The notes beneath the pieces were generated by a model. That model worked only from the letters and a program-made list of their open reading frames with translations, searched no databases and was not told where the DNA came from. Both the position numbers and the translations under genes were made by a program. From the NCBI GenBank assembly GCA_016783505.1, contig JADHWK010000044.1, forward strand, positions 1 through 18,299: a DNA stretch of 18,299 bases, in the 5' to 3' direction. Below are positions 6,212 through 18,299 of the stretch, one piece after another. This DNA comes from Candidatus Zhuqueibacterota bacterium. Its GTDB lineage: Bacteria > BS750m-G25. Each line of letters begins with the position of its first letter. Position 1 is the first letter of the stretch.

Positions 6212-7018
6212 ATGATAAAACCATACATAAAACCTTATACCTGGACTATCATTCTATTTTTAGTATTAAATTTCTGTGTTCAAGGAGTCACCATGGCCCA
6301 GTCCGATGTCTGGCGGGAGGGTGAGGAGCTCGTCTATAAAGTCAAGTGGTCCTTCATCCGCCTGGGCACATTGCGTCTTAGGGTTGCGGATAAACTTCAA
6401 ATCGGGGGAGGGGATGCTTACCGGGTAATATTGAATATTGACTCCAATCCATTACTGTTCTTTTTAAATGTCCACAATTCTTATGAAAGCGTCATTGACG
6501 AAGAATTTTTCCCCCATTATTTCCTCGCCGACGAAATCATAAAGGGGGTGAAGGTTAAAACTGAATACCGGTTTGACTATGATCAGCAGATAATTTTTAC
6601 CAAGGAAATAAGAGGGGGGAAGAGCACGGAACCAACCATCGGCGAGATACCCCTATTAGAGAAGATACAGGACAGCATGTCCCTTGTCTACTTTGCCCGA
6701 GGGAATGTTTATCAAAAGAAAACAATTAGAATTCCAGTCATGGTGGAGACGAAGATAGAGTATGTAGATATTGTCTTTAAAAACAAAAGGAGGATGCTGG
6801 AGATTGATGCCACTGCCCGTCCGGTTGAGGTGGTTGGGCTGGAGGGGGAGACAGACCTTAAAGGCATTGCTGGCTTCACCGGTGAGTTTCAGGGATGGTT
6901 CAGCACCGATGGCCGGGCGGTGCCCTTGCGGGCTAAAATGAAGGTTTCTTACGGAAACGTAATCGTTGAGCTCGAAAAATGGGATAAATGGGAAAATCAA
7001 GGGTATGTTGCACCATAG
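6212..7018 (+). CDS. DUF3108 domain-containing periplasmic protein
   Basis: 268 residues with an N-terminal hydrophobic segment (residues about 10-29) ending VTMA before QSDVW, a plausible signal peptidase site. The mature part begins WREGEELVYKVKWSFIRLGT, the characteristic start of DUF3108, followed by beta-rich sequence including HNSYESVIDEEFFPHYF. The domain is of unknown function and usually periplasmic. The ATG at 6212 has no good ribosome-binding site, while AAGGAG sits upstream of the in-frame ATG at 6293; starting there would lose the signal peptide, so I keep 6212. The last third of the gene (from base 6731) and 56 bp beyond its stop are duplicated at 9178-9529. The gene probably stood directly upstream of the CDP-alcohol phosphatidyltransferase before the AT-rich island arrived. 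Confidence 0.82.
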   Translation: MIKPYIKPYTWTIILFLVLNFCVQGVTMAQSDVWREGEELVYKVKWSFIRLGTLRLRVADKLQIGGGDAYRVILNIDSNPLLFFLNVHNSYESVIDEEFFPHYFLADEIIKGVKVKTEYRFDYDQQIIFTKEIRGGKSTEPTIGEIPLLEKIQDSMSLVYFARGNVYQKKTIRIPVMVETKIEYVDIVFKNKRRMLEIDATARPVEVVGLEGETDLKGIAGFTGEFQGWFSTDGRAVPLRAKMKVSYGNVIVELEKWDKWENQGYVAP

Positions 7019-7074
7019 AAAAAATGAAAGAATTCAAGTTTTTGGTTTGACAGAGGTATAAAAAATAGACTATT
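6731..7074 (+). repeat. direct repeat copy A: 3' end of DUF3108 gene plus downstream flank
   Basis: This segment recurs at 9178-9529 in the same orientation. By hand, the 264 coding bases from KIEY to the final proline match at 232 positions (88%) with no gaps. Upstream the match weakens and needs a 6-base gap. Downstream it runs past the stop to the shared ATAGACTATT. The two copies bound the AT-rich island. Confidence 0.93.
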
Positions 7075-7076
7075 AA
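7047..7076 (+). promoter_or_regulatory. possible sigma-70-type promoter at left edge of the AT-rich island
   Basis: TTGACA at 7047-7052, an 18-base spacer, then TATTAA at 7071-7076. The matching place in repeat copy B reads TTGGTA, so the -35 box exists only in copy A. It would drive the island genes. Prediction by eye only. Confidence 0.35.
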
Positions 7077-7203
7077 TGAGACTGTCTATAAATACTGTGC
7101 TTAGGTTCTCTGGAATTTTTATCTGGATTTTTATAGGAATTCTTTATTACAGGTTGTCATTAGTTGATGTTTTTTCTCCCCTAGTTTTTTTCTTCTTTTT
7201 CAA

Positions 7204-7503
7204 ATGGATCAAAAAAAAGAAAAGGGAAAAGAGTCTTATCGTAAATATTATGAACGCAATAGGGATAAGATTCTTGCAAGGCAGCGGAAATATTACTGGG
7301 AAAACAGGGAACGCAGACTACAAATACTTAGAAATTATAGGGAACGAAATAAGGAGAAGATAAGGACAAATCAACGCCTTAGATATCAAAAAAATAAAGA
7401 TTATTGGGTAAGATATAGGCGTGAACATATAGAATATTCCCGTGAATATCACAACAAATACTATCAGAAGAACAGGAAAAGGATTTTGCAGATAAAAGCG
7501 TAA
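7204..7503 (+). CDS. small highly basic protein with 15-residue repeats
   Basis: 99 residues, extremely rich in Arg, Lys, Tyr, Asn and Glu and almost free of small or hydrophobic residues. Four consecutive 15-residue units are visible: RKYYERNRDKILARQ, RKYYWENRERRLQIL, RNYRERNKEKIRTNQ and RLRYQKNKDYWVRYR. A later, less regular unit ends KYYQKNRKRILQIKA. The pattern predicts a long charged helix. Similar YYxxNRxxxxxxR repeats occur in phage, giant-virus and mobile-element proteins, as I recall; function unknown. ATG 7204 is the only start after an in-frame stop at 7165 and lacks a Shine-Dalgarno site; a pyrimidine tract precedes it. It lies 90 bp before the radical SAM gene. A different frame at 7076-7363 overlaps it, but the regular repeat favours this frame. 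Confidence 0.6.
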   Translation: MDQKKEKGKESYRKYYERNRDKILARQRKYYWENRERRLQILRNYRERNKEKIRTNQRLRYQKNKDYWVRYRREHIEYSREYHNKYYQKNRKRILQIKA

Positions 7504-7593
7504 ATCTAAGGCGGTATAGACTAATTTCTCTTTTTTTTAATCATTAAAGTTTGTTGCAGTTTTGGGATAAATATAAAATAAGGAAATAAAGAT

Positions 7594-9036
7594 ATGAAAT
7601 ATAACAAAAAAGATACTCATGGAAAGGAAGTTTTATTACTATTCCCACCACTGCGAGAACATATTTATGGAGATAAATGGAAACTTACCGAGAGTACAAC
7701 AGCACCATTAGGATTAATGTATCTGGCTACCCCTTTAGTCAATGCAGGATATAAGGTAAATTTTATTGATTTTACAGTCGATAAACTGGAAAAAGAACAA
7801 TATTTCAATATATTAAAAAATGCAGATTTTATTCTTATAACCTGTCTTACACAAACTTTTAAAAGCGTAAAAAAAATCATAAATGACATTAGGAGTGTAA
7901 ATAAAAATACCCTTATATTATGTGGTGGGCCTTATTGCAATGAAACCGAAAATTACGTTGAAGGTTCAGATCTAACTGTATTTGGCGAAGCTGATCTTGT
8001 GATTGTTAAGATATTGGACTTAATTTCATCAAAAAAATCATTAGATGGTATTCCTGGATTAAGTTATAGAAAAAATGGCAAGCTCATAAGAAATCCCGGG
8101 ACTCTTCTCATTGAAAATCTAGACTTTATTGAACCTCCTTCATTTGAATTGGCTAAAAACAAGAATTATGGCTACCTTTATGGTGTGAAAATAAATGCTA
8201 TGACAGCAATGATAACTTCCAGAGGTTGTCCGTTTCGTTGTACCTTCTGTAATTTTCGCGGTATCAAATATAGAGTAAGATCTGTTGATAAGGTTATTCA
8301 GGAAATTAAGATACGGTTAGAAGAAGAGGCTGAATATATTATTTTTCATGATGATAATTTCTTATTGCGAAGAAATAGAGTTATCGAGTTAATGGATGAA
8401 ATTATAGAGAATAAGTTTAATCTTAAAATAGCTATCGTAGGTAGAGTTGATTTAGCTGATTATGTTTTATACAAGAAATTAAAAGAAGCTGGTGTTATCA
8501 TAATAATATACGGGATTGAAAGTGCCAATCAGGATGTTCTAGATTTTTATAATAAAAAAACCACTGTAGAGAAAACAAAAAAAGCTATTGCTATTGCGAA
8601 TAAAGTCGGGATTATTACATATGGTAATATTATTATTGGTGCCCCAATAGAAAAAAAGAGACACTTTGAAGTTAATAAAAAATTCCTGAAAGAGGTACCT
8701 TTAGATTTCTTGAATGTACACATTTTGCAATATGCTTGCCCTTCGGCACTATGGAATGACTTATATAAAAAAGGCCTAATTAATGAAAATGAAATTGTGG
8801 TGACAGCAAATAAAAAACTATCCAATTTTTCCAAAGAAGAATTAATGAAAGTTCAAGATGAATTGATTAAATCATTTTATAACAATCCAAAACGGATATT
8901 AAGGCTGACATATAAAATATCAAGAAATTTTGGAGTAAGTTTCATTTTTAAGTTATTGAATATGTTTTTTAGTAAAACCATTTATAGATCAGCAGAGAAA
9001 TTTCATGACTTTGTAGTAAAAGATGTACGATTATAA
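7594..9036 (+). CDS. radical SAM protein with N-terminal B12-binding-type domain
   Basis: 480 residues. The N-terminal ~150 residues have the Rossmann-like cobalamin-binding-type layout of COG1032 proteins: LLLFPPLREH (14-23), APLGLMYLATPL (37-48), ILCGGPYCNE (108-117) and TVFGEAD (128-134). No DxHxxG motif is present, as is usual for this class. The radical SAM core follows with GCPFRCTFCNF, cysteines 212, 216 and 219 (CX3CX2C) ligating the 4Fe-4S cluster, then HDDNF and GIESANQ. Family members catalyse methylations, ring closures and other radical reactions on lipids, peptides or small molecules; the substrate cannot be told. An AAGGAAATAAAG ribosome-binding site precedes ATG. Codon use is very AT-rich, unlike the flanking genes, which indicates recent transfer. 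The C-terminal ~110 residues are basic and unassigned. Confidence 0.9.
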   Translation: MKYNKKDTHGKEVLLLFPPLREHIYGDKWKLTESTTAPLGLMYLATPLVNAGYKVNFIDFTVDKLEKEQYFNILKNADFILITCLTQTFKSVKKIINDIRSVNKNTLILCGGPYCNETENYVEGSDLTVFGEADLVIVKILDLISSKKSLDGIPGLSYRKNGKLIRNPGTLLIENLDFIEPPSFELAKNKNYGYLYGVKINAMTAMITSRGCPFRCTFCNFRGIKYRVRSVDKVIQEIKIRLEEEAEYIIFHDDNFLLRRNRVIELMDEIIENKFNLKIAIVGRVDLADYVLYKKLKEAGVIIIIYGIESANQDVLDFYNKKTTVEKTKKAIAIANKVGIITYGNIIIGAPIEKKRHFEVNKKFLKEVPLDFLNVHILQYACPSALWNDLYKKGLINENEIVVTANKKLSNFSKEELMKVQDELIKSFYNNPKRILRLTYKISRNFGVSFIFKLLNMFFSKTIYRSAEKFHDFVVKDVRL

Positions 9037-9177
9037 ACAATATCGAAATAATCCAATTTTAGTTTTTTATGACAGTTAAGTACCCCCACTAAATCCTTCG
9101 TTCTAGTACGCCAGTAACTTGAACCCGAGAAAATAGTTACTTACGAGCGACAAAAATGGTAAAGTGGTAAGTACAAA

Positions 9178-9529
9178 ATTTTGGTCTTGGCGGAGAGAAG
9201 AAGGAAAATAGAGTATATTAATATTGTTTTTAAAAACAAAATAAGGATGCTGAAGATTGATGCCATTGGCCGTCCGGTTGAAGTGGTTGGACTTGAAGGG
9301 GAGACAGACCTTAAAGGCATTGCTGGTTTTACCGGTAAGTTTCGGGGATGGTTCAGCACCGAAGGCCGGGCGGTTTCCCTGCTGGCTAAAATTGAGGTTT
9401 CTTACGGAAACATAACCATTGAACTCGAAGAATGGGATAAATGGAAAAATCAAGGATATGTTGCACCATAGGAAAAAACGAATAAAATTTACGTTTCTGG
9501 TTTGGTAGCGGTATAACAGATAGACTATT
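9178..9529 (+). repeat. direct repeat copy B: duplicated DUF3108 gene end
   Basis: Second copy of 6731-7074. Of the 32 differences in the 264 aligned coding bases, about 14 are G in A to A in B against about 3 the other way, so copy B looks shifted toward AT. It ends at ATAGACTATT just before the CDP-alcohol phosphatidyltransferase start. Confidence 0.92.
9181..9471 (+). pseudogene. truncated DUF3108 remnant (C-terminal ~90 residues only)
   Basis: This open frame matches the last ~90 residues of the full DUF3108 protein at 6212-7018: 70 of 88 identical by hand alignment from KIEY to the final YVAP. It lacks the signal peptide, the DUF3108 N-terminal domain, any ATG start and any ribosome-binding site; only a TTG could begin it. 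The frame is intact, yet 18 of the 32 base differences fall as amino-acid changes, many altering charge (Glu to Lys, Lys to Glu), as expected under relaxed selection. I read it as a dead gene fragment left by the duplication that brackets the AT-rich island. A small expressed protein cannot be fully excluded. Confidence 0.85.
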
Positions 9530-10187
9530 GAATAAATTTGGGGTAAGATTGAAGAGGAAGGCGATTGGACAGCGTCAGCAGGTGGCCAGGGATAATTTCA
9601 TCTCGCTCATACGGAGGAAAATATCCCCACTGGTATATTTTTTATCCCGCTACCGGGTTCATCCCGACACCCTGTCCCTCACTGGTTTTGTCCTGAACTT
9701 TGTGGCGGCGGGCTTTTTTGGGATGGGGTGGCTGTTGGGGGCGGGTATTCTTCTGCTGTTGGGCGGTTTTCTGGATATGCTTGATGGAGAGTTCGCCCGC
9801 CTGAAGAATGAGACATCCCGTTATGGGGCCTTTCTGGATTCCGTATTAGATCGCTATTCTGAGTCAGCAGTGTTTTTGGGTCTGGCCATTTATTTCTGGC
9901 ATTCCTGGATGCTGGTGGTTGTTTCTCTGGCTTTCATCGGCTCCATCATGGTGAGCTATGTCCGGGCCCGGGCCCAGGGGCTGCAGATGGATTGTAAGGT
10001 GGGACTGATGCAGAGACCTGAACGAGTAGTCCTCATAGGTTCGGGAGCCCTCCTGAATGGTATTTTTGGGCTTTTTATTCCTTCCTTAAATGACGTTTTG
10101 CTAAAGACAGCTATCATTTTGCTGGCCCTCTTAGCACACTGGACAGCCCTTGTTAGAATACGGTTTGTCAGGAAAAATTTGAGATGA
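9528..10187 (+). CDS. CDP-alcohol phosphatidyltransferase family membrane enzyme
   Basis: 219 residues if translation begins at TTG 9528. The catalytic signature DGx2ARx8Gx3Dx3D is complete: Asp86, Gly87, Ala90, Arg91, Gly100, Asp104 and Asp108, which bind the metal-CDP-lipid substrate. Several hydrophobic helices (about 51-82, 112-143, 160-178, 185-205) fit this inner-membrane family, which joins a CDP-linked lipid to an alcohol such as inositol phosphate, glycerol phosphate or serine. The acceptor cannot be read off. The start is uncertain: TTG 9528, TTG 9549, or an ATT at 9564 that aligns with an ATG in the second copy at 18247 and follows an AGAGGAAGG ribosome-binding-like stretch. The 3' flank of the DUF3108 remnant runs into this gene, so the two were ancestral neighbours. 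Mechanism is secure, substrate is not. Confidence 0.88.
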   Translation: MNKFGVRLKRKAIGQRQQVARDNFISLIRRKISPLVYFLSRYRVHPDTLSLTGFVLNFVAAGFFGMGWLLGAGILLLLGGFLDMLDGEFARLKNETSRYGAFLDSVLDRYSESAVFLGLAIYFWHSWMLVVVSLAFIGSIMVSYVRARAQGLQMDCKVGLMQRPERVVLIGSGALLNGIFGLFIPSLNDVLLKTAIILLALLAHWTALVRIRFVRKNLR

Positions 10188-10901: not shown

Positions 10902-10942
10902 TCATAAAATGCTGGAATCGGTCAGGTGCCAGACTGATTTTT

Positions 10943-10966
10943 CCTTTGTGCCTTGGTGGCTGAAAA
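10943..10966. repeat. possible short dispersed intergenic repeat
   Basis: CCTTTGTGCCTTGGTGGCTG, in the gap between the tetR and tolC-like genes, resembles the short 'TTTGTG-CCTT-GTGG' intergenic sequences that I recall as widespread in many bacterial genomes. Only one copy is in this window, so the call rests on recollection. Confidence 0.3.
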
Positions 10967-10978
10967 ATTTAAAAAAGA

Positions 10979-10995
10979 ACCCTGAAAATCAGGGT
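10979..10995 (+). promoter_or_regulatory. perfect hairpin upstream of the tolC-like start
   Basis: ACCCTGA-AAA-TCAGGGT is a perfect 7-bp inverted repeat, ending about 5 bases before the TAAGGAGGGG ribosome-binding site. No T-run follows, so it is unlikely to be an intrinsic terminator. It could be an operator, an mRNA-stability or a translation-control hairpin. Confidence 0.45.
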
Positions 10996-11012
10996 AAATG
11001 TAAGGAGGGGAT

Positions 11013-12338
11013 ATGAGAAAACTCATTCTTATAACTGTTCTAGTCCTGATTTACGGATCCAAAGGTTTGGGGGCAGATGGGATAGAACTAACCCTGGAAG
11101 AGAGCATCAGTATCGCATTGGAAAAGAACAAATCCCTGGCCGTGGCTAGGGAAAGACTTCTGGAGAGCCAGGCTAAGGTGGGGGAGGCCTGGACCAATTT
11201 CCTCCCCAAACTGAGCAGTCGGGCCAGTTATACCCGCCTGGATGTAGTGCCCTATATGTCTATGAAAAAGTTTCCCATTCCCGGAATGCCAGCGGAGACG
11301 TTTCCACGCAAGATTGAGATAGGAGACGACGATATTTACAATACCACAATTTCAGTCCAGCAGCCCCTGTTTACCGGGTTCAGCATTATGAACGGGTATA
11401 GAATCTCCCAACTCGGAGGGGAGGCGGAATGGTCGAACTTTACAAAAACGGAAAATGAGTTGAAATTTTATGTAAAGAGGGCTTACTTCGGACTGCTTAA
11501 AGCGGAGGAGTTCGCCCGGGTGAGCGAGGAAGCCGTAAAGCAGATGGAGGCCCACGTCCAGGACCTGGAGAACATGTATGCCGCCGGGTTAGTGGCCAAA
11601 AATGATCTGTTGAAAGGGAAGGTACAACTTTCCAATGTCAGGTTGATGAGGGTGAGAGCCCACAATGGGGTTAAGCTCACCCGGGCCGGCTTCCTGAACG
11701 TTCTGGGGCTGCCCCTGAACCGAGGGGTTAAGTTAAAGGAAGAACTACGTTTTGAACCCGCCGAAAGGATTGATCTGGAGGATAATATCAATCGAGCCGT
11801 GAAAAACCGCCCGGAGGTCGAGGCGATGGGCTATTCTTTAGAGATCGGGGAAAAATTGGTATCGCTCAGCCGTGCAAAATATCTTCCCAATGTATTTATG
11901 ATTGGAAATTACGACTATAAGCGCCCCAACCGAGAATATGAGCCTAAATTTTATGGAAGCTGGAACATTGTCCTGGTGGCCCAGTTCAACATATTTGACT
12001 GGGGAGCCATTCACCAACAGACGGCCCAGGCCAAGCACCGTTACAATCAGCTCCGGGAAGGGATGGAACAACTGAAGGATGGGATAACGCTGGAAGTGAC
12101 CCAGGCTTACCTTTCCCTGACGGAAGCACAAAAGATGGTGGAAATCTCCCGGGAGAATATCGCCCAAGCAGAGGAGAACTACCGGGTGACCGACGAGAAA
12201 TTCAAGCAGGGAGCCGCCACCAACACCGACCTTTTGGATGCCAATACCCTGCTCACCCAGGCAAAGATGGATTATGTGGCGGCGCTGGCCGATTACCAAA
12301 TTGCCCGGGCCCAGCTCGAACTGGCTATGGGTAAATGA
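11013..12338 (+). CDS. TolC-family outer membrane efflux channel protein
   Basis: 441 residues. A short signal peptide (residues 1-20, KGLGA before DGIEL) is followed by the family opening LTLEESISIALEKNKSLAVA, then two similar halves each containing long alpha-helical coiled-coil segments and beta-strand pairs. The repeated pattern LGLPLNRG and, near the C-terminus, TNTDLLDANTLLTQAKMDYVAALADYQIARAQLELAMG are typical of outer membrane efflux proteins (OEP repeats). It should form the trimeric outer-membrane exit duct for the membrane-fusion protein and RND pump encoded downstream. A very strong ribosome-binding site (TAAGGAGGGG) and a perfect hairpin precede it. Length is normal for the family. 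The substrate is unknown. Confidence 0.93.
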   Translation: MRKLILITVLVLIYGSKGLGADGIELTLEESISIALEKNKSLAVARERLLESQAKVGEAWTNFLPKLSSRASYTRLDVVPYMSMKKFPIPGMPAETFPRKIEIGDDDIYNTTISVQQPLFTGFSIMNGYRISQLGGEAEWSNFTKTENELKFYVKRAYFGLLKAEEFARVSEEAVKQMEAHVQDLENMYAAGLVAKNDLLKGKVQLSNVRLMRVRAHNGVKLTRAGFLNVLGLPLNRGVKLKEELRFEPAERIDLEDNINRAVKNRPEVEAMGYSLEIGEKLVSLSRAKYLPNVFMIGNYDYKRPNREYEPKFYGSWNIVLVAQFNIFDWGAIHQQTAQAKHRYNQLREGMEQLKDGITLEVTQAYLSLTEAQKMVEISRENIAQAEENYRVTDEKFKQGAATNTDLLDANTLLTQAKMDYVAALADYQIARAQLELAMGK

Positions 12339-18142: not shown

Positions 18143-18231
18143 GGCAAAGGGCAATTAGCGATGAGCGATGTACGAAAGAGGAAACCTTTCTTTATTATGT
18201 AAGCATCGTTATTGAATAAAGGGAAGTAAGA

Positions 18232-18299
18232 TTGGGAACGAAGACGATGGGACAGCGTCAGCAGGTGGCCCGGGATAATTTCATCTCGCTCATACGGAG
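18232..18299 (+). CDS. second CDP-alcohol phosphatidyltransferase gene, 5' end only (runs off window)
   Basis: Bases 18250-18299 match 9567-9616 at 49 of 50 positions. The one difference is silent (AGG against CGG, both Arg), so the N-terminal GQRQQVARDNFISLIR is unchanged. A likely start is ATG 18247 (or TTG 18232); a stop lies upstream in the same frame at 18217. The 39 bases before it are only loosely similar to the upstream flank of the first copy and need a one-base gap. Only about 17-22 residues are in view, so the catalytic motif cannot be checked and I cannot tell whether this copy is intact. It should encode a close paralogue of the enzyme at 9528-10187. Confidence 0.82.
   Translation, partial: MGTKTMGQRQQVARDNFISLIR

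Follow-up and report, generated by a model that had tools for sequence, protein, structure and literature searches.

How two AT-rich genes came to lie between two copies of the end of a host gene, with no recombinase beside them, is the question raised by an 18,299-nt stretch of DNA (the window) from a Candidatus Zhuqueibacterota bacterium. The window makes up the whole of contig C57 in G000, a metagenome-assembled genome of 2.5 Mb that is 60% complete. In it an insert (the island) with a gene for a B12-binding-domain radical SAM protein separates an intact DUF3108 gene from a decayed copy of that gene's 3' end. An old insertion that duplicated a long piece of its target in one event is the explanation we prefer, and we put its probability, judged from the sequence, at about 0.55.

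The DUF3108 repeat and the insert between its copies

The following features form the bracket:
6212..7018, + strand: intact DUF3108 gene, 268 aa (Pfam DUF3108, E 3.9e-20)
6751..7077, + strand: left copy of the proposed target duplication, comprising the 3'-terminal 268 bp of the DUF3108 gene and 59 bp past its stop; matches 9204-9533
7078..9203, + strand: insert (island), 2126 bp, G+C 30.5%, without recombinase
9204..9533, + strand: right copy of the proposed target duplication, a decayed, 5'-truncated DUF3108 end; matches 6751-7077

An original prediction, made by reading the DNA, had described direct repeats of the DUF3108 3' end that continue beyond the stop codon. Formal alignment of the two copies bore out both points, giving 87.2% identity over 327 aligned bases with 3 small gaps; the homology crosses the DUF3108 stop codon and terminates at ATAGACTATT(AAT / GAAT), at the start of the phosphatidyltransferase gene that lies downstream. 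Two figures had to be changed: the duplication begins at ~6751 and not at 6731, and direct counting of the coding part, stop included, yields 233/264 identical bases where 232/264 had been reported. The match cannot be chance.

To polarise the changes in the two copies, a full-length DUF3108 paralogue on contig C60 (69% amino acid identity, 81% at the DNA level) was used. On the branch leading to the left copy 4 nonsynonymous and 7 synonymous changes were obtained, and the nonsynonymous changes lie below the neutral expectation (P=0.007). The branch leading to the right copy carries 13 nonsynonymous and 5 synonymous changes, which fits neutral drift (P=0.47); contrasted directly, the two branches differ only at P=0.12. 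The intact DUF3108 gene thus stayed under constraint after the duplication, and the right copy has been a functionless relic, drifting neutrally, since about the time of the duplication. It follows that the event is old, that both copies were nearly identical when duplicated and that most of the divergence between them arose afterwards.

The only open reading frames in the insert are a small K/R-rich gene and the radical SAM gene; a recombinase, transposase, integrase or integrase remnant was not found in it, in agreement with the prediction of an island without recombinase. Apart from short AT-rich matches of the sort that such DNA is expected to contain, transposon terminal inverted repeats were not detected. 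Inspection by eye recognised no attC-like structure of an integron cassette at the island, and no formal attC search was made. A search for RNA elements, which covered the whole window, returned none.

An AT-rich island of the predicted size (~2.1 kb) does lie between the repeats, low in G+C though not unique in the genome; its G+C, originally estimated at 20-28%, was computed as 30.5% overall and as 27-34% in 300-bp windows. The radical SAM gene (G+C 29.7%, GC3 22.7%) falls near the 2nd percentile among 273 sampled genes, and genes of similar or lower G+C are present on contigs C1, C44, C20, C76, C70 and C82, so that base composition cannot date the arrival of the island. As proof of recent foreign entry, low G+C is further weakened by the three native paralogues of the K/R-rich gene, and a recent arrival argued from G+C alone is ruled out by the old, neutrally decayed right repeat together with the other, equally AT-rich genes.

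We infer that duplication and insertion were a single event. A two-gene module, consisting of the K/R-rich and the B12-radical SAM genes, would have entered at the DUF3108 gene, on its 3' side, and ~327 bp of target (gene end and tail) would have been copied, with the intact gene remaining to the left of the module and a 5'-truncated copy of the gene end to the right of it. The site before insertion would have had a single DUF3108 end leading directly into the phosphatidyltransferase gene, with the joint at ACTATTGAATAAA. The functionless truncated copy would then have decayed, and selection would have kept the intact DUF3108 gene and probably the cargo. Both a wide staggered cut with fill-in and replication-template switching with microhomology would fit as candidate mechanisms.

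Truncated copies of neighbouring genes elsewhere in the genome

Truncated copies of protein genes close to their parent were scanned for in 813 kb of G000 and in 800 kb of a control genome, G116, and the hits were classified partly by eye. In G000, truncated copies were obtained near six real parent genes, namely DUF3108, lon, a WcaJ-like sugar transferase, a DegT aminotransferase, a beta-helix gene and a NeuA-like gene, and four of the five parents other than DUF3108 bracket toxin-antitoxin-like genes. In G116 the scan gave five hits, none of which, as classified by eye, lay in a recognisable protein gene. Under equal rates, 6 truncations against 0 would be met in about 3% of cases (two-sided).

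The clearest of the other brackets are those of the lon 3' end around a nucleotidyltransferase-HepT pair and of the aminotransferase 5' end around a DUF6922-AbiEii pair. At G000:C1:105084-108265 an intact lon gene is followed by the NTP_transf_2/HepT pair and then by the last ~30 codons of lon, 741 bp past the lon stop. The DegT aminotransferase gene is itself interrupted, and its first 135 bp, at 94% identity, bracket the DUF6922-AbiEii pair. The 3' end of the WcaJ-like sugar transferase occurs twice more, at ~90% identity, among MazE-like, DUF4258-DUF2283-like and DUF7718-DUF5647 genes. An array at G000:C1:34242-43800 interleaves toxin-antitoxin-like pairs (MazE-like, DUF7718-DUF5647, DUF4258-DUF2283, DUF6922-AbiEii) with partial sugar-transferase, oxidoreductase and aminotransferase genes. 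Of the beta-helix gene (L147:1-4525, G000:C1) the 5' part is present four times, interleaved with three gene pairs, two of them HicBA-like, and only the last copy is full length; the third pair was read as including an aspartyl-protease-like protein, for which no Pfam match was found. The NeuA-like gene, on C42, has a truncated copy nearby, with polysaccharide genes between the two. If the preferred reading holds, the process that placed the island would also have placed the toxin-antitoxin-like pairs beside copied ends of the lon, sugar transferase, DegT aminotransferase and beta-helix genes.

Some hits of the scan were set aside. Those on C70 and C87 look like common C-terminal sorting domains and are probably not truncations, and the same is probably true of an HdrA-like pair (C1:76144/81446), which seems to be split by an in-frame TGA. 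In these HdrA-like proteins (G000:C1:76144-76839 and 81392-81595) the TGA follows MDCSI, and possibly these are selenocysteine codons.

Explanations for the bracket

Two routes of entry had originally been offered, a Campbell-like event of homologous recombination and a mobile unit that duplicates a long target. What both share, an insertion without recombinase within a long repeat derived from the target, stood up to the analysis; of the two, the mobile unit with its long target duplication is to be preferred, since unrelated genes of this genome show the same anatomy and since a process of this kind has been published for restriction-modification genes. In Helicobacter pylori, as in other genomes, such genes have been described as lying between long target copies of variable length (PMC3874152, PMC3031569, PMC1643837), and their insertion with long target duplication (ILTD), credited there to Nobusato et al. 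2000 and to Furuta et al. 2010, seems to proceed without a transposase. In the window, too, long direct copies of the target (327 aligned bp at 87.2%) flank an insert of 2126 bp that lacks transposase and integrase, and the lengths of the copies, variable and of the order of 100 bp and more, are alike in both systems. In contrast to restriction-modification ILTD, the cargo consists here of Radical_SAM/B12-binding and K/R-rich proteins, and elsewhere in the genome of toxin-antitoxin-like pairs; restriction-modification genes were not present in the brackets examined, and the repeats are old (78-94%). By analogy, the window may therefore be taken as the same kind of event as ILTD, not as restriction-modification ILTD itself. 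A comparable arrangement has been described in Arabidopsis, where transposed genes carry flanking direct repeats of host, often genic, sequence and not of transposon sequence; there, in a eukaryote, the target site was seen in a sister species (PMC2869330), whereas here it was not.

Three other explanations were considered. In a Campbell-type integration, a circular molecule with the island plus a piece of the DUF3108 end would have entered by a single homologous crossover, leaving two homologous copies. The order of intact gene, insert and homologous fragment is just what such a crossover produces, a recombinase is unnecessary, and the further DUF3108 paralogues present in the genome could have provided the homology. 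The donor, however, would already have needed an island joined on both sides to a piece of DUF3108, which demands an earlier event of the same kind, and no donor was found in the collections searched. A diverged donor would moreover have brought in differences shaped by purifying selection, but those of the right copy look neutral, so that the copies differed hardly at all when the event took place; and lon, DegT and the other brackets would each require a donor of their own. We regard this origin as unlikely. An equally unlikely course would have taken two steps, either a tandem or segmental duplication of the DUF3108 end with a later AT-rich insertion between the copies, or a larger duplication that lost its middle part. 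The genome does duplicate DUF3108 readily, as the copy on C60 illustrates, and holds other partial copies and degraded genes. Against this course stands the position of the insert, exactly between the copies and with no repeat left over: a search for a third remnant of the repeat tail, with a candidate between the island genes (GGCGGTATAGACTAATT at 7511), gave no signal better than shuffled sequence. Among integrative elements, many rebuild the 3' end of the gene that they target, and the side on which the island lies, with a duplicated gene end and the intact gene on one side, fits such an element, which would have brought a replacement end and later lost its integrase. Neither an integrase nor a remnant of one is in the insert, though, the repeat of ~327 bp far exceeds the short core of usual attachment sites, and the two copies probably hardly differed when the event took place, which leaves this origin very improbable.

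Several observations weigh against the one-event insertion that we prefer. Its empty site was not found: relatives were sought in two scans of GTDB contigs and in 386 family-representative genomes, and no close relative turned up in either set. The radical SAM gene and DUF3108 gave no matches to the GTDB contigs, and the nearest matches among the family representatives reach ~40% identity, all within one phylum. Direct repeats of at least 80% identity are equally dense in G000 and G116 (28.3 and 27.5 per Mb), so that only the truncations of protein genes differ from the control, and raw repeat density was rejected as a sign of enrichment. The count of 6 against 0 is small, comes from one genome each and from a scan designed after the window had been seen, and several of the other copies may stem from local rearrangement inside polysaccharide loci. 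The cargo of the island, finally, is neither a toxin-antitoxin nor a restriction-modification pair.

The original prediction had also held it almost certain that a DUF3108 gene followed by the phosphatidyltransferase gene was the ancestral order. The analysis did not show this: with no close relative found, the comparison falls to the nearest phylum found, in 14 genomes of which the two genes are not neighbours, and an ancestral order is therefore confined to the bacterium's own lineage at most. The best phosphatidyltransferase matches in that phylum reach 48% and, in the loci read, adjoin an inositol-phosphate-synthase-like gene.

A broader proposal, which we put forward tentatively and consider doubtful, is that this lineage has a recombinase-independent process that repeatedly installs small modules (toxin-antitoxin pairs and the B12-radical SAM pair) beside genes, copying 90-400 bp of the neighbour's end. 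If it were true, insertion with long target duplication would be a general route of gene gain and not a trait special to restriction-modification systems. On the question of how modules without a transposase move, toxin-antitoxin and restriction-modification pairs among them, a genome with several brackets that differ in age, target and cargo offers a concrete test set for a single process, be it a staggered cut with fill-in or template switching. It also gives a search rule applicable to any genome, namely a truncated copy of a neighbour beside a two-gene module.

Cargo, flanking genes and other repeats

The two cargo genes are as follows:
7204..7503, + strand: gene for a small K/R-rich protein, 99 aa, member of a four-copy family in G000
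7594..9036, + strand: B12-binding-domain radical SAM protein, 480 aa (Pfam Radical_SAM 1.9e-22, B12-binding 4.4e-14)

The radical SAM protein has a B12-binding domain followed by a radical SAM core, whose CxxxCxxC motif lies within RGCPFRCTFC at about residue 211. This is the architecture of the cobalamin-dependent radical SAM family (BchE, HpnJ, PhpK, TokK, CysS), and the protein is of that kind, similar to BchE, HpnJ and PhpK. It differs from the family in scoring far below every equivalog cut-off: the NCBIfam models for BchE, HpnJ and PhpK gave 149.2/481, 147.6/578 and 136.7/600 bits. Among proteins of solved structure its nearest relatives are methyltransferases, CysS and TokK for example, and a C- or P-methyltransferase or a related reaction is the likeliest predicted activity. 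A role in defence was not supported, PADLOC giving just a weak match to a radical SAM model. A donor was not identified, as no homologue above 38% identity was obtained among the 386 genomes; the matching stretch in the genome with this closest homologue has ~62% G+C. In 40 genomes of the nearest phylum no homologue was found at E<=1e-30, and the plasmid and phage homologues, among the matches listed, show 21-29% identity. The reading frame of 480 codons contains no stop, where ~4.5 would be expected at the drift rate of the right copy (P about 0.01), so that the gene has probably been maintained.

The three paralogues of the K/R-rich gene are on contig C89 (L020:4637-5038, 6574-6975 and 10939-11337). 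They share 67-68% DNA identity with the window copy and 78-88% with one another, and dN/dS among the copies is 0.15-0.45. No radical SAM gene stands alongside them. The protein matches the phage family phrog_17714 weakly, and weak, distant relatives of the family were found in Vibrio, Erwinia and other phages.

Two further features concern the downstream flank:
9528..10187, + strand: CDP-alcohol phosphatidyltransferase gene, phosphatidylinositol-phosphate-synthase-like (Pfam E 3.4e-15)
18210..18299, + strand: another copy of the phosphatidyltransferase gene start, located where the contig ends, 87-91% identical to 9526-9616

The phosphatidyltransferase was matched by NCBIfam PIPSynth (4.3e-39, under the cut-off), and its matches in the PDB are phosphatidylinositol-phosphate synthases. 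The second copy of its start, a duplication absent from the original prediction, sits past an efflux operon, and the homology between 9526-9616 and 18210-18299 starts at TATTGAATAAA, the point at which the DUF3108 repeat stops. The two may form a second bracket, with an insert of 8.6 kb. The remainder of the contig-end copy was not found in the assembly.

Other repeats and remnants were seen elsewhere in G000. Beside the DUF3108 paralogue on C60 (L019:12700-12790) lies a tRNA-like fragment (CCCCTGTAGCTCAGTTAGGATAGAGCAGCGGTTTCCTAAA) that ARAGORN did not call, possibly the scar of an integrated element. On C44 (L150:2866-5560) there is a degraded tyrosine-recombinase gene, similar to integron integrases, whose fragments recur around a deaminase/HATPase-domain gene, together with a 137-bp direct repeat of 88% identity. 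On C89 (L024:1060-1879) a small transposase-like gene, by reading of the IS200/REP-associated type, lies between direct repeats of ~185 bp at 93.5%. An intergenic hairpin, GGCCTATTCATTCATCTTGAGTAGGCC, with a T-run and a promoter-like stretch behind it, is dispersed in 8 copies over 92 kb (L019:11495, 12814 and 16221; L020:3717, 6391, 7067 and 12228; L024:18476) and looks like a repeated terminator-promoter element.

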